A DNA stretch of 64,000 nt from Microtetraspora glauca (lineage in GTDB: Bacteria > Actinomycetota > Actinomycetes > Streptosporangiales > Streptosporangiaceae). A program made the position numbers and the translations under genes. The DNA lies in contig BBYL01000007.1 in assembly GCA_001570385.1 (NCBI GenBank), forward strand, positions 186,001 to 250,000, in the 5' to 3' direction. Below the pieces are notes generated by a model. The model was given only the letters and a program-made list of their open reading frames with translations. It did no database searches and had not been told where the DNA came from. Shown here piece by piece: positions 38,234 to 52,119 of this stretch (the stretch's first letter is position 1; each line of letters starts with the position of its first letter).

Positions 38234-38310
38234 GGGGCTATAGCGCAGTCCGGTAGCGCACTTCGTTCGCATCGAAGGGGTCTGGGGTTCAAATCCCCAT
38301 AGCTCCACCA
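38234..38310 (+). tRNA. tRNA-Ala (CGC)
   Basis: The 77-base gene includes an encoded CCA (38308-38310). Acceptor GGGGCTA pairs with TAGCTCC and contains the G3-T70 pair that identifies alanine tRNA. The anticodon loop TTCGCAT gives CGC, and the T arm has GGTTCAAATCC. Its 3' half is the attachment site of the 13-kb element. Confidence 0.95.
38266..38310 (+). other. attL core (45 bp)
   Basis: It is identical to 51515-51559. It spans the anticodon loop, T arm and acceptor end with CCA, so the tRNA stays functional after integration. Confidence 0.9.
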
Positions 38311-38375: not shown

Positions 38376-39527
38376 CTACGGCTTGAAGATGTCATCCATC
38401 GCTTCGGCACCCTCCAGGAGCATCGGCCGGAGCTGCTTGCGGTAAACGGTCTCGGTCACCCTCGTGTTGCTGTGGCCGACGAGACGAGAGATGTTCTCGA
38501 TCGGGACTCCGCTGTCGGACATCAGCGACACGAAGCTGTGGCGCATCTCTCGGGGAGTCCACTCCTTTTCGCTCAGCCCTGCCTTCTTGAGAACCTTCCG
38601 GAACGCGCGCCGCACGTTGTGCGCGTCCAGTTCGGTGCCCACCGCCGACGCGAAGACGAGATCCCGATCCTTCCATCGCTCACCAGCCGCTTTCCGGCTC
38701 ACTGCCTGGCGCTCACGATGGCTGAGAAGGGCGTCCACGCAGCGTTTCGGCAGGGCGAGGGTTCGGCGAGACTTCTCCGTCTTCGTGTCCCCACCGGCCC
38801 GTACAGAGCGCCAGACCATGATGGAAGGCGGTACAGGGGGCTCAGCGTCCGGCTTCCCTTCCAGGTCCACGTGATCCCACGTGAGCGCCCGCAACTCCTC
38901 AGTCCGCGCCCCAATGAGCAGCGACAACACGATGTAGGCGTGCAGCGACGTCCCTTCGGACGCGGTGAGTACAGCTTCCGCTTGGTCAAGCGTTAGCGAC
39001 TTGGACGGGCGGCCCTCGCGTCCCTTCGGGATCTCGCAGAGCAGTACGACGTTCCGCTTTACCTTGTCGCGAGCCTGAGCGCGAGAGACAGCCCGTACGA
39101 GGATGGAACGCACCTCGCGTAGCGTCCGTGTGCTCAGCTCCTTGGCCTTCTCGGCTAGCCAGCGGTCAACGTCATCAGCCGACAGTCTTATGAGCTTGGC
39201 GGCCCCCAGGCTCGGAATGATGTGCTTGTTCGCGAGGATCGTGCATTTCTCGACGGTGGCCGCGTCGCGACCACTGAGACCGAACTCCAGCCAGTTCCGC
39301 ACGGTGTCCGCCACGGTGTACCCGGTCGAGGAGACGAGGAGCCCGTCTTCGTAGTCCCGGATGATGTCCTTGAGCTTGTTCTTGGCCTCGGTCTTCGTCT
39401 TGCCGCTGGCCTTCTTCACGATCCGCTTGCCTGCCGGGGTGTAGCCCACGGTCAGGGACGCGATCCAGCGTTGACGGGACTCGTCCCAGTGCAGTCCGCC
39501 GTCCCCGCGGCTTCTCCGCTTGGTCAT
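38376..39527 (-). CDS. int: Tyrosine recombinase integrase
   Basis: The 383-residue protein has an N-terminal arm-binding part (WDESRQRWIASLTVGY), a SAM-like core-binding domain (about 70-160) and the catalytic domain. Catalytic residues are visible: Arg in GARTEELRAL near 208, a Lys in TKTEKSRRTLAL, the box-II REMRHSFVS near 329, His in LVGHSNTRVTETVY near 352 and Tyr near 361. It integrates the element at tRNA-Ala. The gene ends 65 bases from attL and overlaps xis by four bases. Confidence 0.95.
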   Translation of the reverse strand: MTKRRSRGDGGLHWDESRQRWIASLTVGYTPAGKRIVKKASGKTKTEAKNKLKDIIRDYEDGLLVSSTGYTVADTVRNWLEFGLSGRDAATVEKCTILANKHIIPSLGAAKLIRLSADDVDRWLAEKAKELSTRTLREVRSILVRAVSRAQARDKVKRNVVLLCEIPKGREGRPSKSLTLDQAEAVLTASEGTSLHAYIVLSLLIGARTEELRALTWDHVDLEGKPDAEPPVPPSIMVWRSVRAGGDTKTEKSRRTLALPKRCVDALLSHRERQAVSRKAAGERWKDRDLVFASAVGTELDAHNVRRAFRKVLKKAGLSEKEWTPREMRHSFVSLMSDSGVPIENISRLVGHSNTRVTETVYRKQLRPMLLEGAEAMDDIFKP

Positions 39528-39733
39528 GCAGCCTCCCTCTCCAAGAGGGTGATGTAGTCACGGATCGCGGTTGCGGGGATGAGCCGGGCGCGGCCCTGCT
39601 TGACCGAGCGCAGGCGGCCCGCGCGTAACTGCTCGTAGATGAGACTGCGGCTCAGCTTGAGCAGCCGCATGGCGTCGGGGATGCGGTACAGCTCCAGGTC
39701 GTTCGGCTGGTTGTCCATCGTGTCGATGGTCAT
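39524..39733 (-). CDS. xis: Excisionase-type helix-turn-helix protein
   Basis: The 69-residue protein has a MerR/excisionase-like winged helix: YRIPDAMRLLKLSRSLIYEQ then LRAGRLRSVKQGRARLIP. It starts after GAGGAGAACACC and overlaps int. It should direct excision with the integrase. Confidence 0.88.
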   Translation of the reverse strand: MTIDTMDNQPNDLELYRIPDAMRLLKLSRSLIYEQLRAGRLRSVKQGRARLIPATAIRDYITLLEREAA

Positions 39734-39818: not shown

Positions 39819-39890
39819 AGCCGTCCCAGGACCATTTCCGCAGATCAGCCCTGGGACGGCTTTTTCGGTGGGACGGCTCAAGCCGTCCCA
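39819..39890. terminator. Double hairpin at the end of the replication-transfer operon
   Basis: AGCCGTCCCAGG (39819-39830) pairs with CCTGGGACGGCT (39850-39861), followed by TTTTT in the plus direction. TGGGACGGCT (39869-39878) pairs with AGCCGTCCCA (39881-39890) and overlaps the stop of the leftward DUF3631 gene. The four copies of one word in alternating orientation can form several structures, and probably separate the long operon from xis-int. Confidence 0.65.
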
Positions 39891-41092
39891 GGAATCGGAG
39901 TCGTCCCGCGCTGACCTGCGTTGACGATGCTGGGACGGCCGGGACGGGCACCCCTCCCGAACGGGACCACGTCGCCCTCTGGAAGGGGTTCGAGGGTGGG
40001 GCAGTAGCGCGCCCAGGCATCGGCGAAATCGACGCGCTGGTAGCCCTTGGCTTGAGTTCCATCGGGGAAGCGGATGTTGCCCGACCGGATGTCGTATTCG
40101 CGCAGGATGACGCCGAGTTTCATCGCAGTAAGGCCGTTGGGTCCGTAGTCAGCCCAGGGCGCTTCGGGGTCGGCCTTGAGTCGTTCCAGCAGGGTTGCAG
40201 TGGGTAGGGCGGTCTCCGTGCCGAATGCGGTGCGGCAGTCGGCCAGCAGCCGAATGCGGTTGGAGGGCTGACCGTTGTCGTCGGCTTCGGCGGTGAGGGT
40301 CAGCACGGCGGCGCGGGCGCGCTCGGGCCAGTCGCCGCCAGCGTGGTCGGCCACCGCGACGAGGGGTTCCCAGGTGTCGGCGGCGCGGTCTTCGACGGGC
40401 ATGGGTGGTTCGGCCTTCTCCAAGGTGTCGAGGTCGGCGCGCAGCCATGCGGATAGATCTTGCGCGATCTGGCGCAGGCCGGGGCGGTCGCGGCGGTGGC
40501 GGTAGGGGGCGACGGTTTCGCCGGGGCCGCGGCGGCGCATGCGCACCACAACGGCACGGTCTTCGATGGTGTCGGGCATCGCGCCGATTCCGGCGAGCGC
40601 GGCCATAGCGAAGGTCGGGATGGACTCCACGCGGTTGCTGTTGGCGTCGTAGCGCTTGGCGGGCCGGTTGCGCTGGTGCCCGGCGTTGAGCAGGCCGCGA
40701 AGGTCCTCGTTGCCGTCTGCTTTGGGTCCAAAGATGGTGTCGGCCTCGTCCACGAGCAGCGTGGGCGGGTCGTCGGTGATGGATCGGTAGACGGCGGCCG
40801 GTGAGGAGTTGACGGTGATGAACGGGTTGTGGCAGGTGGCCTCGACCACGTCGAGCAGCCGGGACTTACCGCAGCGCTTCTCCGGGGCGCGGATGACCAG
40901 CCGGGGCGCGTGCGCCCACGCGGGTTGTGCGTGGGTGGCGGCGATCCACAACACCACGGCGTCGGCGGCCTCGGGGCTCGGCAGGATCACGTAGCGGATG
41001 AGCGCGGCCAGCAGGGCGTCCAGCAGGGCCGCGCCACGGTTGACGGACTGGTTCATGGTCAGGGCTCCCAGGTGTGAGGGCGGGTTGGTCAT
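39878..41092 (-). CDS. DUF3631 domain protein (replication-associated P-loop)
   Basis: The 404-residue protein has RLVIRAPEKRCGKSRLLDVV near residue 67 (Walker A) and PTLLVDEADTIFG near 110 (Walker B), then ESIPTFAMAALAGIGAMPDT. These are features of DUF3631 proteins encoded beside prim-pol genes in actinobacterial plasmids and AICEs. A helicase-like role in element replication is likely but unproven. The start overlaps the prim-pol stop. Confidence 0.85.
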   Translation of the reverse strand: MTNPPSHLGALTMNQSVNRGAALLDALLAALIRYVILPSPEAADAVVLWIAATHAQPAWAHAPRLVIRAPEKRCGKSRLLDVVEATCHNPFITVNSSPAAVYRSITDDPPTLLVDEADTIFGPKADGNEDLRGLLNAGHQRNRPAKRYDANSNRVESIPTFAMAALAGIGAMPDTIEDRAVVVRMRRRGPGETVAPYRHRRDRPGLRQIAQDLSAWLRADLDTLEKAEPPMPVEDRAADTWEPLVAVADHAGGDWPERARAAVLTLTAEADDNGQPSNRIRLLADCRTAFGTETALPTATLLERLKADPEAPWADYGPNGLTAMKLGVILREYDIRSGNIRFPDGTQAKGYQRVDFADAWARYCPTLEPLPEGDVVPFGRGARPGRPSIVNAGQRGTTPIPGTA

Positions 41093-42036
41093 GCGGCCAC
41101 GGTCCGGGGTCGGCGGGCGCCGTTTTTGAGTCCGGATGCGATGGTGAGGCGCGTTTCGGAGGCGCTCAGCCCGATGTCAACCCCTCCCTGTTCAAGCAGG
41201 TTTGTGACCTCGGCTTGGTCGAGCGCGCCACCTGCGACGAGTTGGCCCAGGGCGGTCGCGGCCAGGTAGAGGGTGCGGTTGCGCTGGCCGACCGGCGCGG
41301 CTGCGAGCCGTTCCAGTTCGCCGGTGATCGCGGCACGCAGGAACGCGCCGCGCCGGTCGTCGGGCAGGGCCAGGCGGACGGGCTTGGCCACGGTCCGGGG
41401 TGGGGCAACTAGCTGCTTGGACAGCCAGGGGGGCAGCGGGGCCGGGGGTGCGTTGTATATGACCTCGTAGGTGCCGGTGCCGTCCGGTAGGTCCACGAAG
41501 CTGCCGGGGCCGACCACGTAGCCGCCGGACGCGCGGGTGTCGATGAGCCAGCCCAGCCCGTTGCCCTTGTCGCCCTCGGTGTTGCGCAGCTTCATGCCGT
41601 CGGGGGCGGCGTAGTAGAGATGCTGGCCACCCCGGCGAGTGCGGACGTGGAAGGTCTCCAGGGTGGGGAAGGGGTGTCCTGTGCGCTCGCAGAGTACGGC
41701 CAGCACGTCGGCGCCGTCGTTCACCCCCGGCAGGTCCCAAGGGGGCGGGGGGCGAAGCCCCTCCTTCTTGGGGGTGTCCAGGTCGAGCACCACGAGCCGG
41801 GAGGGGCCGCATGCGATCCCGATGTTGAACGGGGCGTGCGTCCATGTCCGGCGGATGATGTTGGGGTCGGTGGTGGCGTGGCGCTCCCACTCGGTGAACC
41901 CGCGTAGCGGTCGCTTGTCGCCGGGGGTGAGCGGGAAGACGTGCCAGCCACGAGCGGCGGCGGCCAGCGCGTAGCGGGTGAGATCGGCAGAGCGCATCCT
42001 GTCGTCCTTGGGGCGTCGCAGGTTTGGGGTGCTCAC
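41089..42036 (-). CDS. Bifunctional DNA primase/polymerase (prim-pol)
   Basis: GTG 42036 overlaps the preceding TGA; a reading to 42048 is also open. The 315-residue protein begins YALAAAARGWHVFPLTPGDK followed by RPL, then NIGIACGPSRLVVLDLDTPK and THVRTRRGGQHLYY-like HVRTRRGGQHLYYAAPDG. The DLD and histidine motifs are catalytic in archaeo-eukaryotic primase-like prim-pol. It should start or perform element replication. Confidence 0.92.
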   Translation of the reverse strand: MSTPNLRRPKDDRMRSADLTRYALAAAARGWHVFPLTPGDKRPLRGFTEWERHATTDPNIIRRTWTHAPFNIGIACGPSRLVVLDLDTPKKEGLRPPPPWDLPGVNDGADVLAVLCERTGHPFPTLETFHVRTRRGGQHLYYAAPDGMKLRNTEGDKGNGLGWLIDTRASGGYVVGPGSFVDLPDGTGTYEVIYNAPPAPLPPWLSKQLVAPPRTVAKPVRLALPDDRRGAFLRAAITGELERLAAAPVGQRNRTLYLAATALGQLVAGGALDQAEVTNLLEQGGVDIGLSASETRLTIASGLKNGARRPRTVAA

Positions 42037-42866
42037 GTGAAGCACCATCCGGAGTCACAGGCGCCGTCGCCGAAGTCGAGGGGTAAGACGTCGTCGGTGG
42101 GCACGACGTCGGCCAGTGGTGCGGCGTGCCGGGTGAGCCAGACGGGGTCTTTGCCGAGTTCGGTTCGTCGGGCGTTGAGGGTGGCTTCCAGGGCGCATGC
42201 GCGCTGGAAGAGGTCGGGTTCGTCGCGGCGCATGTCGGCCCACGTGGTGATGCGGTGGAAGGGGCAGAACCAGCAGGAGGACTTGGGCGGTACGGGCAGG
42301 CCAGCGGAGCGGATGATGCGCGGGCAATCGGCGCGCCTGATGCCCAGGTCCAGCAGGGGGTAGATGATGCGCTCGTGCGGCTCGCAGCGGCGGTTGTTGG
42401 CGCGTTCGATCTCGTCCACGCTGATGCCGATGCCGACGGTTGCCGGGTTGTCGGCAGTGGCTCCGTGGGCTTTGAGCCAGCGGCCGATGACGCGAATCTT
42501 GAAGTCGGCGGTGCAGGAGCGGGTACCGGGGGCACCATTGCTCATCCGGACCGGGATGGGCAGGGAGCGGGACCCTTCCTTGGTCAGGCGGCCGTAGAGG
42601 GTCTCCGTGGTGCCGTCGCGGCGGATGCGGGCCAGCGTGTGCAGCTCGATGCCGTGCGCGGCGGCGAACGGGGCCGCGTGTTCGGCGACGTAGCGCAGGG
42701 TGGCGGGGTGCTCGGAGTCGTCGCCGACGTTGGCGAACAGGAAGGTTCGGAAGGGCAGCTCACCGCGGGCGGCGAGCACGAGCGCGGTGGTGGACTGCCA
42801 GCCCCCGCCGTAGCTGAACACCTCCAGGGCGTTGCTGGCGGGGGCGGGGGCAAGGGCGGTGGTCAT
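42033..42866 (-). CDS. PAPS reductase-like PP-loop protein
   Basis: The 277-residue protein has the PP-loop VFSYGGGWQSTTALVLA near residue 17, FANVGDDSEHPATLRYV, and GIGISVDEIERANNRRCEPH. Its C-terminal cysteine site, PKSSCWFCPFH, is complete, unlike that of the cousin at 22331-23005. Such adenine nucleotide alpha-hydrolase family proteins recur in phages and AICEs; a role in base or tRNA thiolation or DNA modification is possible, not shown. It lies between prim-pol and a zinc microprotein. Confidence 0.83.
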   Translation of the reverse strand: MTTALAPAPASNALEVFSYGGGWQSTTALVLAARGELPFRTFLFANVGDDSEHPATLRYVAEHAAPFAAAHGIELHTLARIRRDGTTETLYGRLTKEGSRSLPIPVRMSNGAPGTRSCTADFKIRVIGRWLKAHGATADNPATVGIGISVDEIERANNRRCEPHERIIYPLLDLGIRRADCPRIIRSAGLPVPPKSSCWFCPFHRITTWADMRRDEPDLFQRACALEATLNARRTELGKDPVWLTRHAAPLADVVPTDDVLPLDFGDGACDSGWCFT

Positions 42867-42893
42867 GAGTGCTGTTCTCCCTGTCCTGTCGGG

Positions 42894-43064
42894 TTAGCGG
42901 CCCTTGCGGCGGGCGCGAGCGGCGCAGAGCTGGCACACGAACACGCTGCGGTCGGTGGGGTGGGTCACCAGGTGGTTGTGGTGGAAGTAGGTGCCGCAGC
43001 CCGCGCCGGGGGTGATCGAGCCGTCGCGGGTGGTGCCGCAGGCAGAGTGGTTGGCGGTGGCCAT
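42894..43064 (-). CDS. Cysteine-rich microprotein (56 aa)
   Basis: ATG 43064 follows AGGAG. The product has ACGTTRDGS, AGCGTYFHHNHLV and FVCQLCAARARR, so four cysteines and several histidines could bind zinc. It ends with a basic RRKGR. It is too short for routine gene finding, but its ribosome binding site and position in a row of similar genes support it. Confidence 0.6.
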   Translation of the reverse strand: MATANHSACGTTRDGSITPGAGCGTYFHHNHLVTHPTDRSVFVCQLCAARARRKGR

Positions 43065-43088
43065 GGTCGGTTCTCCTGGTTCGAGGGG

Positions 43089-43394
43089 TCAGCGGGTGCC
43101 GTCGCGGTAGAGGCGGCGGAGGTAGTTGAAGAGGCGGCGGCCCCAGCGCAGGCGTAGGCCGGTGGCGTCGCAGTGGCGGCACCACGTCCGCGTGTGTCCG
43201 TTGGGCTTGAGCGTCTTGCCCTTGCCCTTGCAGCGGGGGCAGCGCCCGAACGGGGCGGCGGCGCACGCGGCGGCGTAGCCGAGCGCCCACAGCAGGGCGG
43301 CGAGGAACAGAGCGGCGATGATCAACGGCAGGGGCGGAAGGGTCGCGATGTTGGTCGCGGGCGGGGTGGTCGCGGTCGCGGCCAGGTGGGTCAT
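43089..43394 (-). CDS. Membrane-anchored DnaJ-type zinc-finger small protein
   Basis: The 101-residue protein has one membrane helix (PLIIAALFLAALLWALGYAA) followed by CPRCKGKGKTL and WCRHCDATGL, the paired CxxC-x-G-x-G pattern of a DnaJ-like zinc finger. It is located just past the candidate clt repeats. It may help transfer at the membrane; this is inference. Confidence 0.65.
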   Translation of the reverse strand: MTHLAATATTPPATNIATLPPLPLIIAALFLAALLWALGYAAACAAAPFGRCPRCKGKGKTLKPNGHTRTWCRHCDATGLRLRWGRRLFNYLRRLYRDGTR

Positions 43395-43484
43395 GGCAGG
43401 GCTCCAGAGACGGTTTTTGGGCGTGGAAAGCTGAGCCCGCTACCCGCGACCTGCGGATATTTGGGCTGATCAGGGGCTATATGG

Positions 43485-43537
43485 CCGGTCGCGGGGCGGG
43501 TCGCGCAGCCGCGACCGGTCGCGGGTGGAGCGCGACC
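43485..43537. repeat. Cluster of GGTCGCG motifs in both orientations
   Basis: Five copies of GGTCGCG or its complement lie within 53 bp (starts 43487, 43499, 43510, 43517, 43531). CCGGTCGCGG (43485-43494) and CCGCGACCGG (43509-43518) form a perfect 10-bp inverted repeat. The cluster is 43 bp downstream of the translocase gene, where AICE and plasmid clt loci are found. Confidence 0.65.
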
Positions 43538-43579
43538 CGGCGAACCCCTCGGACAGGGTCCGCCGGGCGCGCGTCGGCC

Positions 43580-45778
43580 CTATCCGGTGGTGGCCTCCCG
43601 GCGGGCGATGGCGGCGGTGACGGCGGCCTTCTTGGCACCCTTGAGCGCCTTGCCGTCCCGCTTGATGTCCACGCTCGGCACCCCAAGCGCGCGGAGCTGA
43701 GCGGAGATCGCATCGGCGGTCACGTCCGCGTAGTGCTCGGGGATGCGCTCGGACAGCCGGGCAGCGATCAGCGCCCAGGGAAGGCCGGTCTCGGAGCCCT
43801 GGAAGACGCTCAGTGCGTCGGCCAGTACATCGCGCACCTCACGGATCGCGGCCTGCCCGGCGGCGTAGCCGGACAGAGTGCCGGCACGCTCGCGGAGCTT
43901 GCGCGCGGCCTGAAGGATCTTCTCGGCGTCTTCGGCGTCGGCCAGGTGGAACCGCACGGTCGGAGTGTCGTCCCCCGCTCCGCGCAGCAGGCCAACACCC
44001 TTGTAGGAGGGCAGCAGCGCGGAGGAGTCGAACCCCTCGGAGTACGCACCGGAGCCGAGAACCAGGTCAGAGACCTGCCACGAGCCGGTACGCAGCGCGA
44101 TGCGGACCTGGTGGTTGTCGCGGAAGCTGGTGAAGGCGGTAGCAGTGTCGCCGGTGCCGACCCCGCCGGGCTTCTGCGTGGCGTCCAGCACGATGACCCC
44201 GGCGGCGGGAGCGACCTTGACCAGGTACACCAGCAGGCCAGCGATCTCCTTGTTCAGCTCCTTGTCGCCGGTGTCGAAGTACTCCTGACACTCGTCGATC
44301 ACGACCAGGCGGACCGGCATGCCGTACTTCGGGTCACGGGCGATCTCGCGGGTCAGCTTGCCCTCGGGGCAGATGTCCACCGGCAGCTCAGAGAGCTTCT
44401 GGTACCGCGCCTGAACGTCGGCCTTCAGGTCCCGGAGCGTCTGCACGAAGATCTCCAGCGGGTCACCGTCGCGGGACGGGGTGAACCCGAACGAGCAGGA
44501 GTGCGCCACGAGCGCGAACTTGCGCCAGTCCGGGGAGCCCTTGCCGTCGAACACATCCAGCCGCACGTACGGGTCGAGAGCGGCGTACAGCGCGAGCAGG
44601 CGGGCGGTGAAGCTCTTGCCCTGCCTCGGCTGAGCGCCGACCAGGATGGACGTCCACAGCATCAGCAGCGTGACGGCGCGGCCACGCTCGTCCACCCCCA
44701 GCGGTGCGGGCTTCCAGATGTCAGTTTCCTTGCAGGCCAGCAGCGGCGTACGGCCCGCGGGCGTGGCGAGGGGGTCGGCGTCGGCCACCCACAGCCAGTG
44801 CGACCGGTGCGACTGCGGGTCCCGCGACAGCGTGACCTGCGCGAGCGCCACATCCAGCCCGGATGCGATCTTCTCGCGGGCGTTGACAGCGTCGGCGAAC
44901 GTCTTGCCGTACGGCAGGTTGATCAGCACCTTGGAGCCGTCGCCCTCGCGCGCCATGGCGGTGCCGAACTCGATCTGCTGGTTCGGCTTGTCGGGGTGCC
45001 CGAGTCCGGCGGCGTAGTAGGCGCGAAGCACGATGTCGCTGTTCAGTTTGCGGTACCGGCGCGTCACTACGGCGGTGGGGATGATCTGGCGACCCGCTGG
45101 GCGGCCGTGGCGGGCCAGGACCGGCACCATCCCGGCGGCAATCCCGATCTGCCACAGCACGGGCAGCCCGAGCGTCAGGATGACGGCGACGCACAGGGCG
45201 ATGGCCTGCCCGAGCAGGACCAGGCCGCGCCAGCGGCGGGTGGACTTGCCCTCGCGGTGCAGCTTGAGCCACATCGCCGGGTCGTTGTCGGATGCGGCCT
45301 GCTGAAGCAGCGTGTACTGCTCGTTGACCCACCACCACCGCATCTGACGGCCTGCCAGGCGGAACGCGCCGACCACAGCCCAGGCGGCGGCCTGAAGGGC
45401 GTACCACGGGGAGCGGACCGCGTGGAAGGCGGCCACGTGTCCCCAGCGGCCCGCCGTGTTGGCGAGCGTCGCGCCCAGGTTGGCGCGGTGCAGGTCGGTC
45501 GGGATGATCGGACGCCGTCCCTCTACCGGGGTAGCCGCCGGGCCGATGCCCTCGGGCAGGTCTACGAGGGTCGGGGCCGTGTCGGCGGGCGGGACCTCGT
45601 CCAGCTCGATCTCATAGGAGGTGTCGCGGGCGGCGGTCCGGCGGCCGACCGTGCGGTCACGGTCGGCGAACTCCTCGTCCTCGTCCAGCAGGACGACGGT
45701 GGGACGCATCGCGGGCGGGTTGCCGTTGACACGGTCCGGGCGGTCGATGGTGTTGGTGGGGTCGTGGGGCTGAGTCAT
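43580..45778 (-). CDS. FtsK/SpoIIIE-type DNA translocase (TraB/TraSA-like)
   Basis: The 732-residue protein has an acidic N-terminus, hydrophobic segments at about 130-155 and 190-225, and an FtsK ATPase domain. Walker A is ILVGAQPRQGKSFTARLLAL near residue 384, and Walker B is LVVIDECQEYF near 494. The C-terminal 90 residues look like a winged helix (LPWALIAARLSERIPEHYAD). Proteins of this type pump double-stranded DNA between mycelia and read clt repeats through that winged helix. The ATG overlaps the preceding small ORF. Confidence 0.92.
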   Translation of the reverse strand: MTQPHDPTNTIDRPDRVNGNPPAMRPTVVLLDEDEEFADRDRTVGRRTAARDTSYEIELDEVPPADTAPTLVDLPEGIGPAATPVEGRRPIIPTDLHRANLGATLANTAGRWGHVAAFHAVRSPWYALQAAAWAVVGAFRLAGRQMRWWWVNEQYTLLQQAASDNDPAMWLKLHREGKSTRRWRGLVLLGQAIALCVAVILTLGLPVLWQIGIAAGMVPVLARHGRPAGRQIIPTAVVTRRYRKLNSDIVLRAYYAAGLGHPDKPNQQIEFGTAMAREGDGSKVLINLPYGKTFADAVNAREKIASGLDVALAQVTLSRDPQSHRSHWLWVADADPLATPAGRTPLLACKETDIWKPAPLGVDERGRAVTLLMLWTSILVGAQPRQGKSFTARLLALYAALDPYVRLDVFDGKGSPDWRKFALVAHSCSFGFTPSRDGDPLEIFVQTLRDLKADVQARYQKLSELPVDICPEGKLTREIARDPKYGMPVRLVVIDECQEYFDTGDKELNKEIAGLLVYLVKVAPAAGVIVLDATQKPGGVGTGDTATAFTSFRDNHQVRIALRTGSWQVSDLVLGSGAYSEGFDSSALLPSYKGVGLLRGAGDDTPTVRFHLADAEDAEKILQAARKLRERAGTLSGYAAGQAAIREVRDVLADALSVFQGSETGLPWALIAARLSERIPEHYADVTADAISAQLRALGVPSVDIKRDGKALKGAKKAAVTAAIARREATTG

Positions 45779-45975
45779 GATGTGTGCACCTCGTGTGCGT
45801 TGACGTGGGCGGGGTGGCAGGGCGCGGCCGGAGTCTTGGCGGATGAGGCCGCGCCCTGTGTGTTGGTCGGGGACGATGCGCGGTCGGTCCGCACCCCGTC
45901 CGTGCGGGCGGTGGTGTCCGGCTTCCCGGACGGACTGCGCGGTCCGTCCGGGAAGCGGGCGGCGGTCGGGTTCAC
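45775..45975 (-). CDS. Small coupled ORF before the translocase
   Basis: A 66-residue ORF starts at GTG 45975, overlapping the TGA of the gene before, and ends in the TGA that overlaps the translocase ATG. The product is Pro/Ser/Thr-rich with one cysteine and no clear domain. The overlaps at both ends support translation, while composition is weak evidence. Confidence 0.4.
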   Translation of the reverse strand: MNPTAARFPDGPRSPSGKPDTTARTDGVRTDRASSPTNTQGAASSAKTPAAPCHPAHVNAHEVHTS

Positions 45976-46145
45976 CGGTCGGCCTGGCGGGCGGTGGCGT
46001 GGTGTCCGCAGCAGGTCCGGCGGTGCTCCGACATCCGGTCGTGGATCTGCGCGCGGACGCGCGGTCCGGTGATGACCATGCGGACGAAGATGGACACCGG
46101 AACGGCCAGGCAGATCAGCGCGGCGATCGTGGCGAAGGTGAACAT
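45972..46145 (-). CDS. Small membrane protein (57 aa)
   Basis: ATG 46145 gives a 57-residue product with one membrane helix (FATIAALICLAVPVSIFVRM) and a basic cytosolic tail containing CCGHH. Such tiny membrane proteins are common in AICE spread operons. It starts 17 bases after the DUF2637 gene stop. Confidence 0.6.
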   Translation of the reverse strand: MFTFATIAALICLAVPVSIFVRMVITGPRVRAQIHDRMSEHRRTCCGHHATARQADR

Positions 46146-46162
46146 GGCGGTCGGACCTTTCC

Positions 46163-47233
46163 TCAGGCGGCGTCGGCGTTGACGGGGGCGGGGGTGGAGT
46201 CGGGGACGGTCGAGGGGTCGGCGGGGGCTTCGGTCCGCAGCCGGGCCAGCAGCGCCCCGGCGCGGTCGGTCGAGATGGACGCTCCGGTCTGGCGGATCGC
46301 GTCGCGGAGCCGGTCACGGGTGAGCGGTTCGCCCTTGGTCCCCAGGTCGGCGGCGATCTGCCAGCCGAGCGGCATCAGGTCGTCCACGTCCACCGGCGCA
46401 CGGCGGGAACGGGCGGCGGTGCGCTTGCTCGCCGGGCCGGTCTTCCTCGCGGTCGGCCTGCGGGGCGGGGCGGGCAGTGCGGGCCGTTCGGCGGCCGGTA
46501 CGGCAGGCGCAGCCGCCGGGCCGGGGTCGAGCCGTACGGCCTCAGCGTGGATCGGGGAACCTGCGGGGGTGAGTTCTCCGAGCTTGTAGAGGGCGCGTTC
46601 GCGGCGGGTGGCCTTCCACCGCCACATGCGGCCGTAGCGGTCCTGCAGCTCGGTGCGGGCCATGATGCGGTCCCGCTCCCGTCCGAGCGCGGCCGGGTAA
46701 GAGCGGATCTCCCACAGCACCATGCGCCGCCACAGAGCGAAGGTCGGCACGGGAGCGAGCAGCCAGCGGGAGAGGCGGATGGAGTCCATCCGGGTCCGGC
46801 TGGCCAGCTTGGCGCGCTTGCGCAGGGCGTGCGCGCCGATCTCGACGGCGGCGACCCACAGCAGAGGCAGCACCGCGTGCGCGACCATGCCGAACGGGGT
46901 GGTCTGTTCGGCCACGTTCAGGTAGACGGTGGCACCGGTCAGCGTCCAGGGGATGAACCTCAGCCAGCGCACCCGCATGTCCATCCGGGCAAGGACGATG
47001 TCCAGCGCGGAGAACACGCCGATGCCCAGGTCAACCCCGAGCGGCAGCAGGAAGGCCAGGGGGCCGAACGCGGGCTTGGCGGCGGCGGCGACGGTGGCGA
47101 AGCTGATGACGAACCCGATCAGCCCCAGCGCGCCGACAGCGGCGGCCGTGACGAAAACGGCTTTGCGCTCGCCCTCGCTCAGCTCACGTGGGCGCGTGCC
47201 GGCATCGGTGGCGGTGGTGTCGGTGATGGTCAC
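46163..47233 (-). CDS. DUF2637 membrane protein (SpdB-like spread protein)
   Basis: GTG 47233 follows AAAGGAGG. The 356-residue protein has four membrane helices between about 28 and 140, including FVTAAAVGALGLIGFVISFA, GPLAFLLPLGVDLGIGVFSA and HAVLPLLWVAAVEIGAHALR, which fit DUF2637/SpdB. A basic region follows, and then a C-terminal helical domain (MPLGWQIAADLGTKGEPLTR) likely to be a DNA-binding winged helix. SpdB proteins assist intramycelial plasmid spread. Confidence 0.85.
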   Translation of the reverse strand: MTITDTTATDAGTRPRELSEGERKAVFVTAAAVGALGLIGFVISFATVAAAAKPAFGPLAFLLPLGVDLGIGVFSALDIVLARMDMRVRWLRFIPWTLTGATVYLNVAEQTTPFGMVAHAVLPLLWVAAVEIGAHALRKRAKLASRTRMDSIRLSRWLLAPVPTFALWRRMVLWEIRSYPAALGRERDRIMARTELQDRYGRMWRWKATRRERALYKLGELTPAGSPIHAEAVRLDPGPAAAPAVPAAERPALPAPPRRPTARKTGPASKRTAARSRRAPVDVDDLMPLGWQIAADLGTKGEPLTRDRLRDAIRQTGASISTDRAGALLARLRTEAPADPSTVPDSTPAPVNADAA

Positions 47234-47245
47234 GGATTCCTCCTT

Positions 47246-47545
47246 TCAGTCCTCGTAGATCCAGGCGGGCACCAGGCCGGAGCCGCCGCAGGACGGGCAG
47301 CCGTCCCCGTCGCACCACCAGCAGGTGACCGGGTCGTCGCCGGGGATCGGGGCGTTGGGGTGGCCGGGGCCGGGCTCGTGAGCGGGGCGGTAGGTCATGG
47401 GGGTGACCTCCAGGTAGAGGCGGATGTGGGTGGCTGAACCCCGGCACGGGCGCGGCCCGGAGAACGCGGTGACGGTGAAGGTGTCCCGGATGATCTGGGT
47501 CGCCTCGGTCACCTGCTCGGGCTCGCCGATAAGGCGGATCTTCAT
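47246..47545 (-). CDS. Small protein with CxxC zinc motif
   Basis: ATG 47545 after GGGAG gives 99 residues. The first half (IRLIGEPEQVTEATQIIRDT) is an alpha/beta pattern, while the second has CWWCDGDGCPSCGGSGLV, a compact zinc knuckle. Its start overlaps the RRQRL-type gene's stop. Function is unknown. Confidence 0.65.
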   Translation of the reverse strand: MKIRLIGEPEQVTEATQIIRDTFTVTAFSGPRPCRGSATHIRLYLEVTPMTYRPAHEPGPGHPNAPIPGDDPVTCWWCDGDGCPSCGGSGLVPAWIYED

Positions 47546-47934
47546 GCGGCACGCTCCCGTCCGGTCTCCCCGGCGCAGTCCAGGCACGTGCCCAGGTGGC
47601 GCGGGAGGACGTAACCGGCGTCACGGCCGCACTCGGGGCAGGTCCGGCGGGCGGCGTTGGCCTTGGCCAGCGCGTCGAGCTGGGCGGGGGTGGCGGTGCG
47701 CTTCGGCAGGGCGAACCGCACGTCGTAGAGGTAGGCGGCGCGGACGCCGCGGGCACCGTAGCGGCGGGAGCGCCAGAGCACCTGTGCCTGTACGCCCTGC
47801 CCACCGGGCCGGAGCCCGGCGGCGGTGAGCTGGCGAAGGGTCATCAGGTGCGGCGGGGCCATCCGCCACGGCCAGGTCGGGATGCCGTACCGGGACCCGG
47901 TCGGGTCCCAGAACACGGCGCGGATGCGGCTCAT
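47542..47934 (-). CDS. RRQRL-type zinc-binding protein
   Basis: The 130-residue protein has the AICE-typical order: GIPTWPWRMAPPHLMTLRQL, then AAGLRPGGQGVQAQVLWRSR, and a zinc site CPECGRDAGYVLPRHLGTCL followed by DC. The MTLRQL segment stands for the family's RRQRL motif. The role is unknown, but the family is a marker of AICEs. Confidence 0.8.
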   Translation of the reverse strand: MSRIRAVFWDPTGSRYGIPTWPWRMAPPHLMTLRQLTAAGLRPGGQGVQAQVLWRSRRYGARGVRAAYLYDVRFALPKRTATPAQLDALAKANAARRTCPECGRDAGYVLPRHLGTCLDCAGETGRERAA

Positions 47935-48104
47935 CAGATGGCCCGGCAGGAAGCGGCGTGGTCGTTGGCGGCCCATCCCTCGCCCCAGTCCCGCTCGCCG
48001 CAGCCCTCGCACGTCCACCGGCCGTAGCCGTCAGCTCCCCTTCTCCAGTTCACGACGTTGCCTCCGGCGGTGCGGTACTTGCGGCTGTTGGCGTTGTTGG
48101 TCAT
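47934..48104 (-). CDS. Zinc-ribbon microprotein, paralogue of 49028-49225
   Basis: A 56-residue product reads YRTAGGNVVNWRRGADGYGR then CEGCGERDWGEGW and AANDHAASCRAI. The CxxC plus HAASC pattern suggests a zinc site (C-C-H-C). The same scaffold (FRTIGGNTVTW, CQGCGDRG, QHAAACRAE) is encoded at 49028-49225 on the same strand. Its stop overlaps the start of the RRQRL-type gene. Confidence 0.65.
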   Translation of the reverse strand: MTNNANSRKYRTAGGNVVNWRRGADGYGRWTCEGCGERDWGEGWAANDHAASCRAI

Positions 48105-48132
48105 TGCTGATCGGTCCCTTCGGGATTGGGGG

Positions 48133-48288
48133 TTAGCGGGTGGGGAGAGTGCCCTTGCCCTTGCAGGTGTGGCAGGTCCGGCCGATGGTGCGGTTGCCCT
48201 TGCCCAAGACCCAGGTGGTGACGACGACGCGGCGGTCGCCGAGGCAGGTGGGGCAGGTCAGGGGCGGGTTCTTCTTGCGGAAGTTCAT
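48133..48288 (-). CDS. DnaJ-type zinc-finger microprotein (51 aa)
   Basis: ATG 48288 gives a 51-residue protein with CPTCLGDRRVVV and CHTCKGKGTL, a paired CxxC-x-G motif like half a DnaJ zinc finger. It is basic and has no membrane segment. It lies in the row of Cys-rich genes. Confidence 0.6.
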   Translation of the reverse strand: MNFRKKNPPLTCPTCLGDRRVVVTTWVLGKGNRTIGRTCHTCKGKGTLPTR

Positions 48289-48312
48289 TGGTGATTCCTT
48301 GGGGTCGGAAGG

Positions 48313-48480
48313 TCAGATTCCGGTCTGGGACCGGACGAGGGTGCGGCAGGTGCGGCACCTGGCGGCGTGGCCGGAGCCGTGGATGTGGCAGATCTCGACC
48401 TGACGGCCGGAGGTCCGGCAGCGGGGGCAACGGGTCGCGCATGCGTGGTCGCGGTCGCACTCGGTGCACTGGAAGCGCAT
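48313..48480 (-). CDS. Cysteine-rich microprotein (55 aa)
   Basis: The 55-residue product has nine cysteines in CTECDRDHACATRCPRCRTS, ICHIHGSGHAARC and RTCRT patterns, enough for two zinc sites. ATG 48480 begins two bases after the WhiB stop, so coupling is likely. No family is recognised. Confidence 0.6.
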   Translation of the reverse strand: MRFQCTECDRDHACATRCPRCRTSGRQVEICHIHGSGHAARCRTCRTLVRSQTGI

Positions 48481-48481
48481 G

Positions 48482-48790
48482 TCAGGCCACCTCCTCGCCG
48501 GAGACGAGCAAACGGATGGACATCAGCCGGATACGGGCGGCGGTCAGACCGGCCCAGACGCCCTCAGCGGGGCGGATCGCGAGGGCGTAGGCGAGGCACT
48601 CGGGCCGGGCCGGGCAGGTGAGGCAGACCCGCTTGGCCTGCTTCTCGCGCTCCAGGCGGGCGGCGATCGGCTCGTCCTCGAAGGCGTCGGGGCCGGTGAA
48701 CAGCTCCGGGTCGGCGGTGGCGCAAGCCGGGTCGGCCTCCACCATCGCCGTACGCAGCTCGCGGATCGTGGGCGTGTTCTGGCCGGTCAT
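48482..48790 (-). CDS. WhiB family iron-sulfur transcription regulator
   Basis: The 102-residue protein has the four WhiB cysteines: one in ADPACATADPELFTG, and three in KRVCLTCPARPECLAYALA. The G-V-W-A-G turn follows (AEGVWAGLTAARIR). WhiB proteins bind a 4Fe-4S cluster and regulate through sigma factors. An element-borne copy may tune transfer or host development. It overlaps the preceding small gene by four bases. Confidence 0.92.
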   Translation of the reverse strand: MTGQNTPTIRELRTAMVEADPACATADPELFTGPDAFEDEPIAARLEREKQAKRVCLTCPARPECLAYALAIRPAEGVWAGLTAARIRLMSIRLLVSGEEVA

Positions 48791-48930
48791 CGGGCGGCCT
48801 TGCCCGGTGTCGCGTCCGGGTGGCAGAAGGGGCAGGGGTAGGGGCCGGAACCGGGGTTCCAGATCTGGCCGTTGCGGCACTCCTGGAGGCAGCAGCCTCC
48901 GGGGTTGGCGCCGGTCTTCGGGCGGGTCAT
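48787..48930 (-). CDS. Cysteine-rich microprotein (47 aa)
   Basis: The 47-residue product reads GANPGGCCLQECRNGQIWNP then YPCPFCHPDATPGK, with five cysteines and one histidine in zinc-like spacing. It overlaps WhiB by ATGA. No family is recognised. Confidence 0.6.
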   Translation of the reverse strand: MTRPKTGANPGGCCLQECRNGQIWNPGSGPYPCPFCHPDATPGKAAR

Positions 48931-49027
48931 GATGGTGAAGCTCCTTCTTGCTGTTGCAGGTGGGTGGGAGCGCTGGGGCGGCCCATGTCTTGGTCGATGG
49001 GGGCCGCCCCGGCACAGTTCGCCGTGG

Positions 49028-49225
49028 TCACTCAGCGCGGCAGGCGGCGGCGTGCTGGTTGGCCTTCTCGCGCGTGGCGTTGTAGCCGCGGTCCCCGCAG
49101 CCCTGGCACTCCCAGGGGCCGTAGTCGATGGGGAACTCCTTGCCGTACCGGTCACGCTCGGTTCCGGCCTTCCAGGTCACCGTGTTGCCGCCGATGGTGC
49201 GGAACTTGGCCTCGGTCTTTCGCAT
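49028..49225 (-). CDS. Zinc-ribbon microprotein, paralogue of 47934-48104
   Basis: The 65-residue product has FRTIGGNTVTWKAGTERDRY, WECQGCGDRGYNATREKA and HAAACRAE. It shares the scaffold of the 47934-48104 product but has a longer loop. The CxxC and H-x3-C residues are conserved between the two, which argues for a functional metal site. Confidence 0.65.
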   Translation of the reverse strand: MRKTEAKFRTIGGNTVTWKAGTERDRYGKEFPIDYGPWECQGCGDRGYNATREKANQHAAACRAE

Positions 49226-49273
49226 TGCTGACGTGCCTTTCTGAGATGAGATGGGAGCGGGGTGGGGCGGGAC

Positions 49274-49444
49274 TCAGCCGATGCCGCTCGCGAAGCTCAC
49301 GAGCGCATCAGCGACGGTGCCGATGCCGTGCATGGCGTTCGTGGCGAGGCTGGCCGCCTTGGCGGGCTCCCGGATGACGAAGAACAGAGCGAGAGCCAGC
49401 AGCAGCAGGGGCAGCAAGCGCCGGGACTTCGGGGCAGGAAACAT
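49274..49444 (-). CDS. Small membrane protein, first gene of the leftward operon
   Basis: ATG 49444 follows AAGGAG. The 56-residue product has a basic start and one membrane helix (LLPLLLLALALFFVIREPAK), then a small amphipathic tail. It is the promoter-proximal gene of the element's long leftward operon. Similar one-helix proteins are common at this place in AICEs. Confidence 0.6.
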   Translation of the reverse strand: MFPAPKSRRLLPLLLLALALFFVIREPAKAASLATNAMHGIGTVADALVSFASGIG

Positions 49445-49710
49445 CACACGGCTCCTTCCGATGAGGTGTGTCTGAGCACTTCAGGCAGGCCCCCTCCCGA
49501 CGTGAGCCGGAAGGGGCACGCAGCGATTCGCAAAGGCGAACAGAAGCGTTCACGCAGGTCATCGCCTGCGCGGGGCCGCCTTTTCGGTGGGAGGCGGTAG
49601 CCCGGATTCAGTTGGTAAGTGGCGACTGCATCAGCCCGTCGGCGCGCGGCCCGTGGCCGCCTTCCCAGGTCTTCCGGCTGTGCATCGGCCCTTTGGCGAC
49701 TCGTAAACCT

Positions 49711-49801
49711 GTCTGCCAAGTGGCGATGACATGAAGGTAAGCGGGCTTGGCAGACATGTCAACGACTTCCGTCAAACTTGTCTGCCAAGTAGTTGGCAGA
49801 C
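49711..49801. promoter_or_regulatory. GntR operator sites (GTCTGCCAA / TTGGCAGAC)
   Basis: Four copies occur: 49711-49720 and 49780-49788 in one orientation, 49746-49755 and 49793-49801 in the other. The last pair forms a perfect 9-bp inverted repeat with a 4-base spacer, 22 bp before the gntR start. The first pair brackets the leftward promoter. Confidence 0.75.
49734..49762 (-). promoter_or_regulatory. Leftward promoter of the AICE operon
   Basis: On the minus strand TTGACA (49762-49757) and TACCTT (49739-49734) are separated by exactly 17 bp. The spacer contains the TGTCTGCCAAG operator word, so binding of the divergent GntR regulator would block RNA polymerase. Confidence 0.72.
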
Positions 49802-49823
49802 GTGAAGACAAGGAAGGGATACC

Positions 49824-50642
49824 GTGGCGTCTATGACCGAACGTGACTGGCGGCCCCGATACCTCCAGGTGGCCGAAGACCTGCGAGACCAGATCAATCG
49901 CGGGGAGCTTCCGGCGGGTGAACCACTGCCGAGCGAGACGGTTCTCTCCGAGACCTACAAGCTGTCCCGTACGAGCGTTCGCAACGCGATCAAGCAGTTG
50001 AAGGATTGGGGGCTCGTTCGGGCAGAGCAGGGAAGGGGCACCTACGTCCGAGCACCACGGCAACGCGTTCGACGCACGACCGAGCGGTACCAGTGGGAGA
50101 AGGACCGGGTGCGACTCTCCGAAGAGGAGCGCAGAAAGACCGGAGCCACGGAGAAGGACACCGGGCTCACCATGGACGGACTGACCTTCCATGCCGAATA
50201 TGGCACCGTCGAGGCCAGCGAGACCCTGGCGGCAACGTTCGGCGTACCAGTTGGGACGCGGCTACTGCACCGCCGTTACCAAACCAGCTCTCGCCAGGAG
50301 AACGCCCCGCTCAGCCTGGTCTACTCATGGCTTCCATACGACTTGGTGTCCGCGAATCCTGCCTTGCTCTCAGCGGACAATGAGCCGTGGCCCGGCGGAA
50401 CACAGCATCAGCTCTACACAGTCGGCATCGAAATTGACCGCATCGTGGACGAGCTGAGGGCACGTCCGCCACAGCCAGATGAGGCAGCGATTCTCGACGT
50501 TGAACCGGGGGTGTCCGTGATCGTGCTCCGTAAGATCTCGATCGACACGCAGGGCCGTGTGGTCGAGGTAGCCGAGAACATCCTTCCCGGCGACAGGTAC
50601 GAACTCGTCTACAACACACAGCTTGAGCGGTGGTCTGAGTGA
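49824..50642 (+). CDS. GntR family regulator (HutC/UTRA type, KorSA-like)
   Basis: GTG 49824 lies six bases after GGAAGG; ATG 49833 is the alternative. The 272-residue protein has the GntR winged helix (LQVAEDLRDQINRGELPAGE then LPSETVLSETYKLSRTSVRN), and a UTRA effector domain from about 120 (TLAATFGVPVGTRLLHRRYQ, and LDVEPGVSVIVLRKISID). It is divergent from the transfer operon with inverted repeats between them, as for pSAM2 KorSA. It probably represses both promoters. Confidence 0.88.
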   Translation: MASMTERDWRPRYLQVAEDLRDQINRGELPAGEPLPSETVLSETYKLSRTSVRNAIKQLKDWGLVRAEQGRGTYVRAPRQRVRRTTERYQWEKDRVRLSEEERRKTGATEKDTGLTMDGLTFHAEYGTVEASETLAATFGVPVGTRLLHRRYQTSSRQENAPLSLVYSWLPYDLVSANPALLSADNEPWPGGTQHQLYTVGIEIDRIVDELRARPPQPDEAAILDVEPGVSVIVLRKISIDTQGRVVEVAENILPGDRYELVYNTQLERWSE

Positions 50643-51403
50643 CTCACCTGATCTCGGTCATCACCCCCGTCTATCAGCCGGTGCCGGAGTTCTTGCGGGC
50701 CGCATATGACTCCCTGGCCGCGCAGGAACTCCCGGCGGGATGGGACTGGGAATGGATCGTCCAGGAGGACGGTGAGAGCGGCGCGCTGTCCGGCCTGCTG
50801 CCGGATGACTCACGGATCAGCCCTGGTAGCGGTCGGCGCGGTGGCCCCGGCGTGGCGCGCACGCTCGCCATGGCACGCGCGAGCGGAGAGTTGGTCAAGG
50901 TGCTGGATGCCGATGACCAGCTCATGTTCGGCGTGTTGGCCCGTGACATCGGGGTGCTTACGGCGCATGAGCAGATCGGATGGACCACATCACGAGTCCT
51001 TGATCTGCTCCCGGACGGCTCCACAGTCGGATTCGACCTAGACCCCCTTGAGGGTCCGATCAAGCGCGGGGCCGTTCTCGACCACTGGCTTGCCCACGAC
51101 TACCGCGCCCAGGTCCATCCCGCCACACTGTGCATTCGACGCGACCTGTTGCTTGCCCTAGGCGGTTGGATGGCGCTGCCGGCATCGGAGGACACTGGCC
51201 TACTGATCGCCGCGAACACGGTCAGCGATGGCTACTTCTCGGCGGACCCCGGTCTCCTCTACCGCAAGTGGCCGGGCCAGATGACCAGCCACGCATCTCA
51301 CGTCGAACCAACCGAACGGGCAGCGAGAATGCGAGTCATCAGGGACAGGGCGCACGCATTGGATCTGCTCTTTCACGGCGCACCCTCTTCCCGCGCTGAG
51401 TGA
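50639..51403 (+). CDS. Family 2 glycosyltransferase-like protein
   Basis: The 254-residue protein begins ISVITPVYQPVPEFLRAAYD, has EWIVQEDGESGAL, and a KVLDADDQL motif near residue 90 that matches the DxD metal site of GT-A transferases. Similar GT2-like genes follow GntR regulators in other AICEs. The acceptor is unknown. GTG 50639 overlaps the gntR stop. Confidence 0.78.
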   Translation: MTHLISVITPVYQPVPEFLRAAYDSLAAQELPAGWDWEWIVQEDGESGALSGLLPDDSRISPGSGRRGGPGVARTLAMARASGELVKVLDADDQLMFGVLARDIGVLTAHEQIGWTTSRVLDLLPDGSTVGFDLDPLEGPIKRGAVLDHWLAHDYRAQVHPATLCIRRDLLLALGGWMALPASEDTGLLIAANTVSDGYFSADPGLLYRKWPGQMTSHASHVEPTERAARMRVIRDRAHALDLLFHGAPSSRAE

Positions 51404-51514: not shown

Positions 51515-51559
51515 TTCGCATCGAAGGGGTCTGGGGTTCAAATCCCCATAGCTCCACCA
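51515..51559 (+). other. attR core (45 bp)
   Basis: It is identical to the attL core at 38266-38310. Upstream sequence no longer matches tRNA-Ala, so this is the partial tRNA copy at the far end of the element. Confidence 0.9.
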
Positions 51560-51858: not shown

Positions 51859-52119
51859 TCAGGGTCGGCCCTTCCGGTAGCTCTCGTACAGCGCGGCGAG
51901 GTTGTCGGTGTAGAGCTCGGTGTAACCGCAGGCCGCGCAGATCCAGGCGCGGACGACCCCCGATGACGAGCCCTGCTTCCAGATGAAGCCGTGGTTCGGC
52001 GGTTCCGGCTCCGTGATGTGGACGCGCAGCGGGAGCGCACCGTTCTGTCCGCGGTCATGCACGTCGATATCGGCCATGATGTGGGAGGAGCCGCATTTCG
52101 GGCAGGAGCCGTTCCTCAT
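51859..52119 (-). CDS. Zinc-ribbon protein (86 aa)
   Basis: ATG 52119 follows CCAGGAGAGG. The product starts RNGSCPKCGSSHIMADIDVH and ends with WICAACGYTELYTDNLAALY, so two CxxC pairs frame a 45-residue beta-rich middle. It fits a small chromosomal nucleic-acid-binding zinc ribbon. The upstream in-frame extension to 52158 belongs to fossil sequence. Confidence 0.72.
   Translation of the reverse strand: MRNGSCPKCGSSHIMADIDVHDRGQNGALPLRVHITEPEPPNHGFIWKQGSSSGVVRAWICAACGYTELYTDNLAALYESYRKGRP

Follow-up and report, generated by a model that had tools for sequence, protein, structure and literature searches.

Actinomycete integrative and conjugative elements (AICEs) play an important part in carrying genes between antibiotic-producing bacteria. 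Those of the pSAM2 type insert at tRNA genes and carry an integrase, an excisionase, replication genes, an FtsK-type transfer protein and a GntR-family regulator. Here, we analyse 64,000 nucleotides of Microtetraspora glauca (contig BBYL01000007.1, positions 186,001 to 250,000; hereafter the window, to which all coordinates refer unless another sequence is named). The window contains an element that is, judging from its genes, an AICE: it has a PF00589 integrase, 45-bp direct repeats at a tRNA-Ala gene, Prim-Pol and DUF3631 replication genes, and a transfer gene (tra) whose product resembles FtsK-annotated proteins. In all the above features it is like the pSAM2 type. Unlike pSAM2-type elements, it also encodes eight microproteins with CxxC motifs (here called sm1, sm2, sm3, sm5, sm6, sm7, sm9 and sm10), an RRQRL motif zinc-binding protein and a WhiB-family regulator. 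No pra gene of the pSAM2 type was identified, although no search was aimed at it.

Several described systems come close to this array. An AICE survey, in its accessible text, reports one Frankia element (FeuI6863) with a WhiB-like factor and mentions a C2H2-like protein, and its main text contains no occurrence of "cysteine", "DnaJ" or "small protein" (PMC3218068). SpdA2 of the actinomycete conjugative plasmid pIJ101 is described, in the part of the report available, as an overlooked small protein with zinc-finger matches that binds DNA and affects plasmid stability (PMC4170104); we liken it by description only, and here eight proteins of several families are found on one element. The C(P)XCG zinc-finger micro-proteins of Haloferax volcanii (49 in that genome) are similarly shorter than 70 residues with paired CxxC motifs, but they are archaeal, and the abstract describing them mentions no mobile element (PMC11241148). 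The AICE type and the WhiB and RRQRL families are already known. As apparently new we file an AICE cargo of putative zinc-type microproteins, together with the sm5/sm10 and sm7 families, which seem to fall outside Pfam families. Our literature search, with most subscription journals outside its reach, found no description of this array.

A preliminary description of this stretch listed at least eight CxxC proteins of 47-101 residues on one strand besides WhiB and the RRQRL protein, and all eight are present on the minus strand. They are sm1 (42894-43064; 56 aa, one CxxC and two more Cys), sm2 (43089-43394; 101 aa, a hydrophobic segment followed by CxxCxGxG ... CxxC), sm3 (47246-47545; 99 aa, a compact CxxCxGxGCxxCxGxG), sm5 (47934-48104; 56 aa, C2HC), sm6 (48133-48288; 51 aa, two DnaJ-like motifs), sm7 (48313-48480; 55 aa, CxxC-x9-CxxC-x9-CxxH-x7-CxxC), sm9 (48787-48930; 47 aa, CxxxCRNGQIWNPG..YPCPxC) and sm10 (49028-49225; 65 aa, C2HC). 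The RRQRL protein (47542-47934, minus strand) scores 138.2 bits against NCBIfam NF041638 (E 1.2e-40; curated cut-off 65 bits), and the WhiB protein (48482-48790, minus strand), with four Cys, scores 56.5 bits against PF02467 (E 4.2e-15; cut-off 23.6).

We confirm that the eight open reading frames (ORFs) look like coding genes. Their third-position GC is 0.88-0.96, each has a partial or full ribosome site (AAGG to AGGAGG, by eye) upstream, and all are called by a codon-model gene caller written for this analysis. The caller's first version omitted sm5, preferring a longer RRQRL start, and gave its lowest scores to sm7 and sm9 (7.3 and 11.7). The CxxC motif occurs 13 times in the coding frame of the eight ORFs, compared with counts of 0, 0, 0, 0 and 3 for the remaining five; shuffling the residues gave a mean of 2.46, with 13 reached in none of 5000 shuffles. 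The reported coupling by overlaps also holds, with sm9 and WhiB sharing 4 bp, RRQRL and sm3 4 bp, and sm5 and RRQRL 1 bp, while the coordinates of WhiB and sm7 leave a spacing of 1 bp. The suggestion that most of these genes are too short for standard gene calls does not hold: coding sequences of 54 and 57 aa are annotated by RefSeq in a related Kitasatospora element, and shortness by itself hence does not prevent a call.

Small CxxC proteins are also enriched in this type of element. We counted called ORFs of 28-110 aa, excluding WhiB and RRQRL and, at related loci, any ORF off the strand. The motif is present in 8 of 12 in this AICE and in 62 of 163 around 40 related RRQRL loci; in 450 kb of the M. 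glauca genome beyond the element, 7 of 72 have it (Fisher P 5e-5 and 5e-6, noting that the related loci are not independent). With WhiB and RRQRL kept, the counts are 9/13 in the AICE and 79/180 at related loci. Parts of two actinophages, Totinger (annotated WhiB) and Nimi13 (WhiB-like match), were barely richer than the chromosome, given their counts of 8/46 and 5/29 (caller trained on each phage). Across 66 named RRQRL neighbourhoods (up to 12 genes each side, contig ends as they stand), the number of CxxC small ORFs per operon runs from 0 to 7 (9, 27, 17, 5, 4, 2, 1 and 1 loci, respectively), and the window with its eight is hence the tail of a continuum rather than a singularity. These come from 67 named loci, leaving out L226, where no RRQRL was called; the named and unnamed RRQRL loci partly overlap. 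The named relatives include Sphaerisporangium, Microbispora, Nonomuraea and Actinomadura.

WhiB proteins are iron-sulphur transcription regulators, and the adjacency of sm7 and WhiB across genera is the array's best functional clue. Among 34 unique sm7 proteins in the fetched loci (identical sequences counted once), 25 start within 60 nt of the WhiB stop, 14 of these with a one-base overlap; in the subset of loci fetched only because of sm7, the figure is 12/17. At E<=1e-3, the sm7 profile finds matches in 25 of 200 family genomes, covering 14 of 68 genera; in a class-wide sample, it does so in 3 of 296 genomes at E<=1e-5, all three of the same family as M. glauca. Comparing eight members with the Pfam double zinc ribbons gave nothing above cut-off (best E 0.0071, Zn_ribbon_11, in two members). 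Located beside WhiB in many genera, sm7 is a concrete candidate for a small WhiB partner.

The second distinctive family consists of sm5 and sm10, which, as first proposed, are paralogues (E 9.5e-6, 51% identity in the own genome) and align in a common 15-row family alignment. The ligands C, C, H and C are invariant in 15/15 aligned members, with the spacing C-x2-C-x14-H-x3-C in sm10. AlphaFold2 predicts sm10 with high confidence (predicted local distance difference test, pLDDT, 94.7) with six strands and a C-terminal helix; the His lies on this helix, which adjoins the last Cys. With this model, Foldseek found no solved structure at E<=0.001, and the best comparison with solved structures (VIA Z 3.6) was no usable match. 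None of the 15 members matches a Pfam zinc-finger family above cut-off (best E 0.011, in one member). Neither sm5/sm10 nor sm7 has an NCBIfam match above cut-off, and PHROGs, where matches to the microproteins were weak and mostly of unknown function, gave none that was convincing for either family. Of 295 family genomes, 23 have a match to the sm5/10 profile at E<=0.01 (for 13 it is below 1e-5, own included), and in the class-wide sample only the own genome does (1/296 at E<=1e-3). The family tree leaves 10 of 12 inner branches open, and the duplication cannot be dated from it. Searching plasmids by tblastn gave one record for sm10, from Kitasatospora, and nothing for sm7, a 44-aa relative, sm9 or sm2. 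In this Kitasatospora plasmid (L077:13644-14237, NZ_CP108563.1), a 197-aa protein encoded between WhiB and DUF2637 ends in an sm10-like C-terminal part.

The Cys-rich domain of DnaJ has four CxxCxGxG-type motifs. DnaJ-like motifs had been reported in three of the microproteins, and we find them in sm2, sm3 and sm6 (as CxxCxG and CxxCxGxG in sm6). The knuckles of sm6 and sm2 are like those of DnaJ and of anti-TRAP (RtpA), but both proteins remain below the family cut-offs and lack a J domain: sm6, with two motifs, scores 26.6 bits against PF00684 (E 7.2e-6; cut-off 32.7), and sm6 and sm2 score 21.7 and 20.1 bits against the RtpA model NF058604 (cut-off 65). Convincing sm6 matches (E<1e-5) occur in 7 of 295 family genomes, own included, and in six of these seven an sm5/10 member is found no more than 5 kb from sm6. 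A phage tblastn with sm6 reached a best E of 0.1, and a genome-contig scan gave no relative. Relatives of sm2 were found by tblastn at 26 of 40 loci, downstream of tra wherever both were found; sm3 has tblastn matches at 13 of 40, a few of them at other positions, and sm9 has relatives at 6 of 40 and a three-sequence alignment. A search with sm1 gave 8 of 295 genomes at E<=0.01, with only the own genome's two copies convincing; the second, in another element, is 84-86% identical. The lengths, starts and ligands of the microproteins are largely conserved across genera. Two further loci, L116 and L117 (about 6.1-9.4 kb in each), which we take for AICEs, have longer rows of small Cys proteins following an integrase and a 463-469-aa protein; several of these small proteins have two CxxCxGxG-type motifs.

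The M. glauca genome contains two further related elements, L158 (7.4-18.6 kb) and L229 (892-903 kb of the window's contig). L229 is closely similar to the window element in its backbone (rep 90% identity, primase 94%, PAPS-like protein 94%, tra 95%) and in sm2 (92%), WhiB (86%), sm9 (89%) and s57 (84%), a small protein with a hydrophobic start and three Cys but no CxxC (45972-46145, minus strand; relatives at 10 of 40 loci). DUF2637 (52%) and sm7 (65%) are more divergent. Among the called ORFs of L229 there is no counterpart of sm1, sm3, RRQRL, sm5, sm6, sm10 or hyd57, a small hydrophobic protein encoded by the first gene of the block (49274-49444, minus strand; tblastn relatives at 7 of 40 loci), nor of the window's integrase or excisionase; L229 does carry another Cys protein, of 39 aa. 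L158 has sm1, sm2, sm7, sm9, WhiB, an sm3-like ORF (E 2e-4) and other small Cys proteins, and no sm5, sm6 or sm10. Searched as a whole, the own genome has RRQRL and sm6 once each, sm5/10 twice, both times in the window, and sm1 twice, in the window and in L158. On the strength of these comparisons, sm2, sm7 and sm9 behave as core genes, and sm1, sm3, sm5, sm6, sm10 and RRQRL as accessory, exchangeable cargo. The comparisons also show that elements whose transfer genes are nearly identical exchange this accessory set. Having three related elements in one genome, of which two have largely the same backbone but different microproteins, offers a ready-made comparison for studying accessory function.

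Selection against nonsynonymous change, on which the preliminary description had staked its proposal, is seen in several of these genes. In close pairs, the ratio of nonsynonymous to synonymous differences (pN/pS; all P values uncorrected) is 0.29 for sm2 (P 0.003), 0.38 for sm9 (P 0.043), 0.47 for WhiB (P 0.034) and 0.49 for sm6 (P 0.037). The evidence is less sure for sm1 and mixed for sm7, as discussed below. For sm9, a less close pair, with L158, gave 0.48 (P 0.08). The closest pairs among relatives gave pN/pS of 0.03/0.21 for sm3 and 0.13/0.54 for sm5/10. There was no significant constraint on s57 (0.99) or a 66-aa ORF (0.70).

How might these proteins work? Upstream of the array lies a divergent gene for a GntR/UTRA regulator (49833-50642, plus strand; Pfam GntR 1.9e-20 and UTRA 4.3e-18 on 49824-50642), which we call KorSA-like by analogy. 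Four copies of an operator-like repeat, TTGGCAGAC, two per strand, are found between this gene and the array (49707-49804), and no other exact copy exists in the window. A 14-bp form of the repeat has three sites, against 0.63 expected, and three were reached in 1 of 100 shuffles. The KorSA homologue SCO3932 is reported, in the part of the source available, to bind the promoter region common to it and the pra homologue SCO3933 (PMC8584621), and the repressor logic of our proposal follows from the way such regulators work. At another locus (L064), a palindrome pair of its own is found beside the GntR gene; each repressor may have its own operator, which these palindromes would fit.

Directly supported are the coding potential of the array, the kept Cys/His ligands, and the position on one strand behind the GntR gene and operator-like repeats. 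We consider it about an even chance that the array is an early, GntR-repressed part of the AICE operon encoding folded zinc-knuckle adaptor microproteins. Derepression upon excision, or upon entry into a new cell, would yield the microproteins jointly, and these would bind zinc. WhiB and the adjacent, probably translationally coupled sm7 may form a regulatory pair acting on transcription, and sm2 may be a membrane-anchored zinc protein beside the FtsK-type transfer pump. The accessory members would bind host nucleic acid or proteins, tuning establishment in a given host. The earlier idea of zinc-dependent adaptors, as a prediction, agrees with the Cys/His knuckles being conserved and with the confident model of sm10; the idea that the proteins regulate transfer gains indirect support, for sm7 from its adjacency to WhiB and for the array from its position behind GntR and the operator-like repeats.

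Several observations count against this zinc-adaptor proposal. In the genome's other two elements, TTGGCAGAC is absent from the loci, and the places examined have no operator-type repeats. A scan of 42800-50000 found no sigma-70-like promoter; the same scan found no terminator. Zinc binding cannot be assumed from motifs, as 5 of 14 purified Haloferax proteins with such motifs bound none according to the accessible part of that study (PMC11241148). The sm7 model is poor (pLDDT 69.5), some sm7 relatives do not have some of its ligands, and 9 of the 34 sm7 proteins are not within 60 nt of WhiB (145-682 nt in seven, no WhiB found in two). Two of these exceptions, L230 and L247, have another sm7-like copy directly behind WhiB. 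In L247 (at about 5.1-5.4 kb), the sm7-like genes behind WhiB are in tandem, strongly different, and overlap by one base.

The selection data also have weak points. For sm1, the close-pair pN/pS of 0.39 reaches a P of only 0.055, and less close pairs gave 0.76 for sm2 (with L064) and 0.86 for WhiB (with L158). The window copy of sm7 gave 0.98 and 1.33, not clearly below 1, whereas the two other copies, compared with each other, gave about 0.36 (P 0.02); the window sm7 is hence a divergent allele. For sm3, sm5 and sm10 of the window, there is no close relative to compare in this way. Over all divergent pairs of the small families, pN/pS averages 0.6-1.1; we think this average is uninformative because of the divergence and extreme third-position GC.

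Alternatively, the accessory microproteins could act on the host as inhibitors (in anti-restriction, anti-defence or host take-over) and be the first products in a new cell, much as plasmid leading-region genes are; evasion of host defence had been suggested earlier. These members are small and variable, are swapped on a constant backbone and, with the exception of sm1, lie towards the GntR end of the operon. Leading regions of conjugative plasmids likewise carry early, variable accessory genes, and are described in the accessible part of the source as hotspots for anti-defence genes (PMC11541004). However, no anti-defence homologue is known here, and the libraries searched, among which there was no anti-phage-defence library, produced nothing that convincingly matched a known inhibitor by family, PDB entry or fold. 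Most of the members are also basic (sm2 +14, sm6 +10, sm7 +6, sm1 +5; only sm3 is acidic, -5), unlike DNA-mimic inhibitors. Moreover, AICE transfer is held to use double-stranded DNA, and leading-region logic may therefore not apply. An anti-defence role of the accessory set is possible, and as an account of these proteins we rate host-facing inhibition as rather unlikely.

Less probable again are proteins for spread or stability, similar to Spd or SpdA2, that would bind DNA of the element itself and function in replication, partition or mycelial spreading. The pIJ101 precedent described above and the basic charge of sm2, sm6, sm7 and RRQRL would suit such a role. The accessory members have no counterpart in L229, though, indicating that they are not needed for persistence of the backbone, and we consider this explanation quite improbable. 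The high Cys content and the linkage to WhiB, an iron-sulphur family, could also suggest metal or redox buffers protecting WhiB or the cell during transfer. This we regard as very doubtful, as the Cys are paired at fixed positions and the ligands are spaced as in structural zinc knuckles, unlike those of metallothioneins. Finally, that these are decaying gene fragments or non-translated ORFs is hardly credible: genes below a 150-residue threshold, about half of AICE cargo (223 of 445), were read as probable pseudogenes in a Streptomyces survey, in the part available (PMC9513070), and s57 and the 66-aa ORF have no significant constraint, but lengths, starts and ligands are largely kept between genera, close pairs show constraint on sm2, sm9, sm6 and, with less certainty, sm1, and the longer relatives noticed are limited to the 197-aa Kitasatospora protein and a few longer open frames around sm5/10 matches.

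Although they come from another host family, the present sequence data argue against the pseudogene reading for sm2, sm9, sm6 and, less surely, sm1. With several short-gene families conserved and constrained in close pairs, that reading becomes testable. Taking the zinc-adaptor proposal further, AICEs of the Streptosporangiaceae group may have a dedicated early island of exchangeable zinc microproteins, with sm7 as a new family of WhiB partners and sm5/sm10 as a new C2HC family, acting as a modular tool-kit that fits the element to host transcription and defences; a large share of the short AICE genes dismissed as pseudogenes would then be functional. We put this forward tentatively, as less likely than not.

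The remaining parts of the element are as follows. The tRNA-Ala(CGC) gene lies at 38234-38310, and its 3' part forms the left attachment (att) repeat (38266-38310), an exact 45-bp match to the repeat at the opposite end (51515-51559). Between these, all on the minus strand, are genes for the tyrosine integrase (38376-39527; PF00589 3.3e-19), an excisionase-like helix-turn-helix protein (39524-39733; HTH_17 1.2e-9), a DUF3631 protein (39878-41092; Pfam 3.3e-72) that is probably a replication protein, and the Prim-Pol replication protein (41089-42036 with the caller's start, a longer start at 42048 being possible; PF09250 5e-45 on 41089-42048). The product of 42033-42866, labelled here a PP-loop/PAPS-reductase-like protein and having a PP-loop-like start (SYGGGWQS), has no Pfam or NCBIfam match at E<=0.01 and a weak PDB match to PptA (E 0.0058). 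The FtsK/SpoIIIE-type transfer ATPase gene tra (43580-45778) matches FtsK-annotated plasmid proteins by tblastn (E down to 2e-73), Pfam gave nothing, and NCBIfam gave only EccCa at E 0.0068. The DUF2637 protein (Pfam 1.4e-21) is encoded at 46163-47233; this gene, tra and 42033-42866 are on the minus strand as well.

Behind the GntR gene, still inside the element, is a glycosyltransferase-like gene (50639-51403), whose match to the TuaG model (9e-7) is below cut-off. Just outside the right att repeat, 51859-52119 encodes an 86-aa zinc-ribbon-like protein with weak matches below cut-off. In four related loci (L037, L042, L045 and L059), the slot between WhiB and RRQRL holds larger cargo, by eye including NUDIX-like, 246-aa HEIAH and repeated-SGDI proteins.

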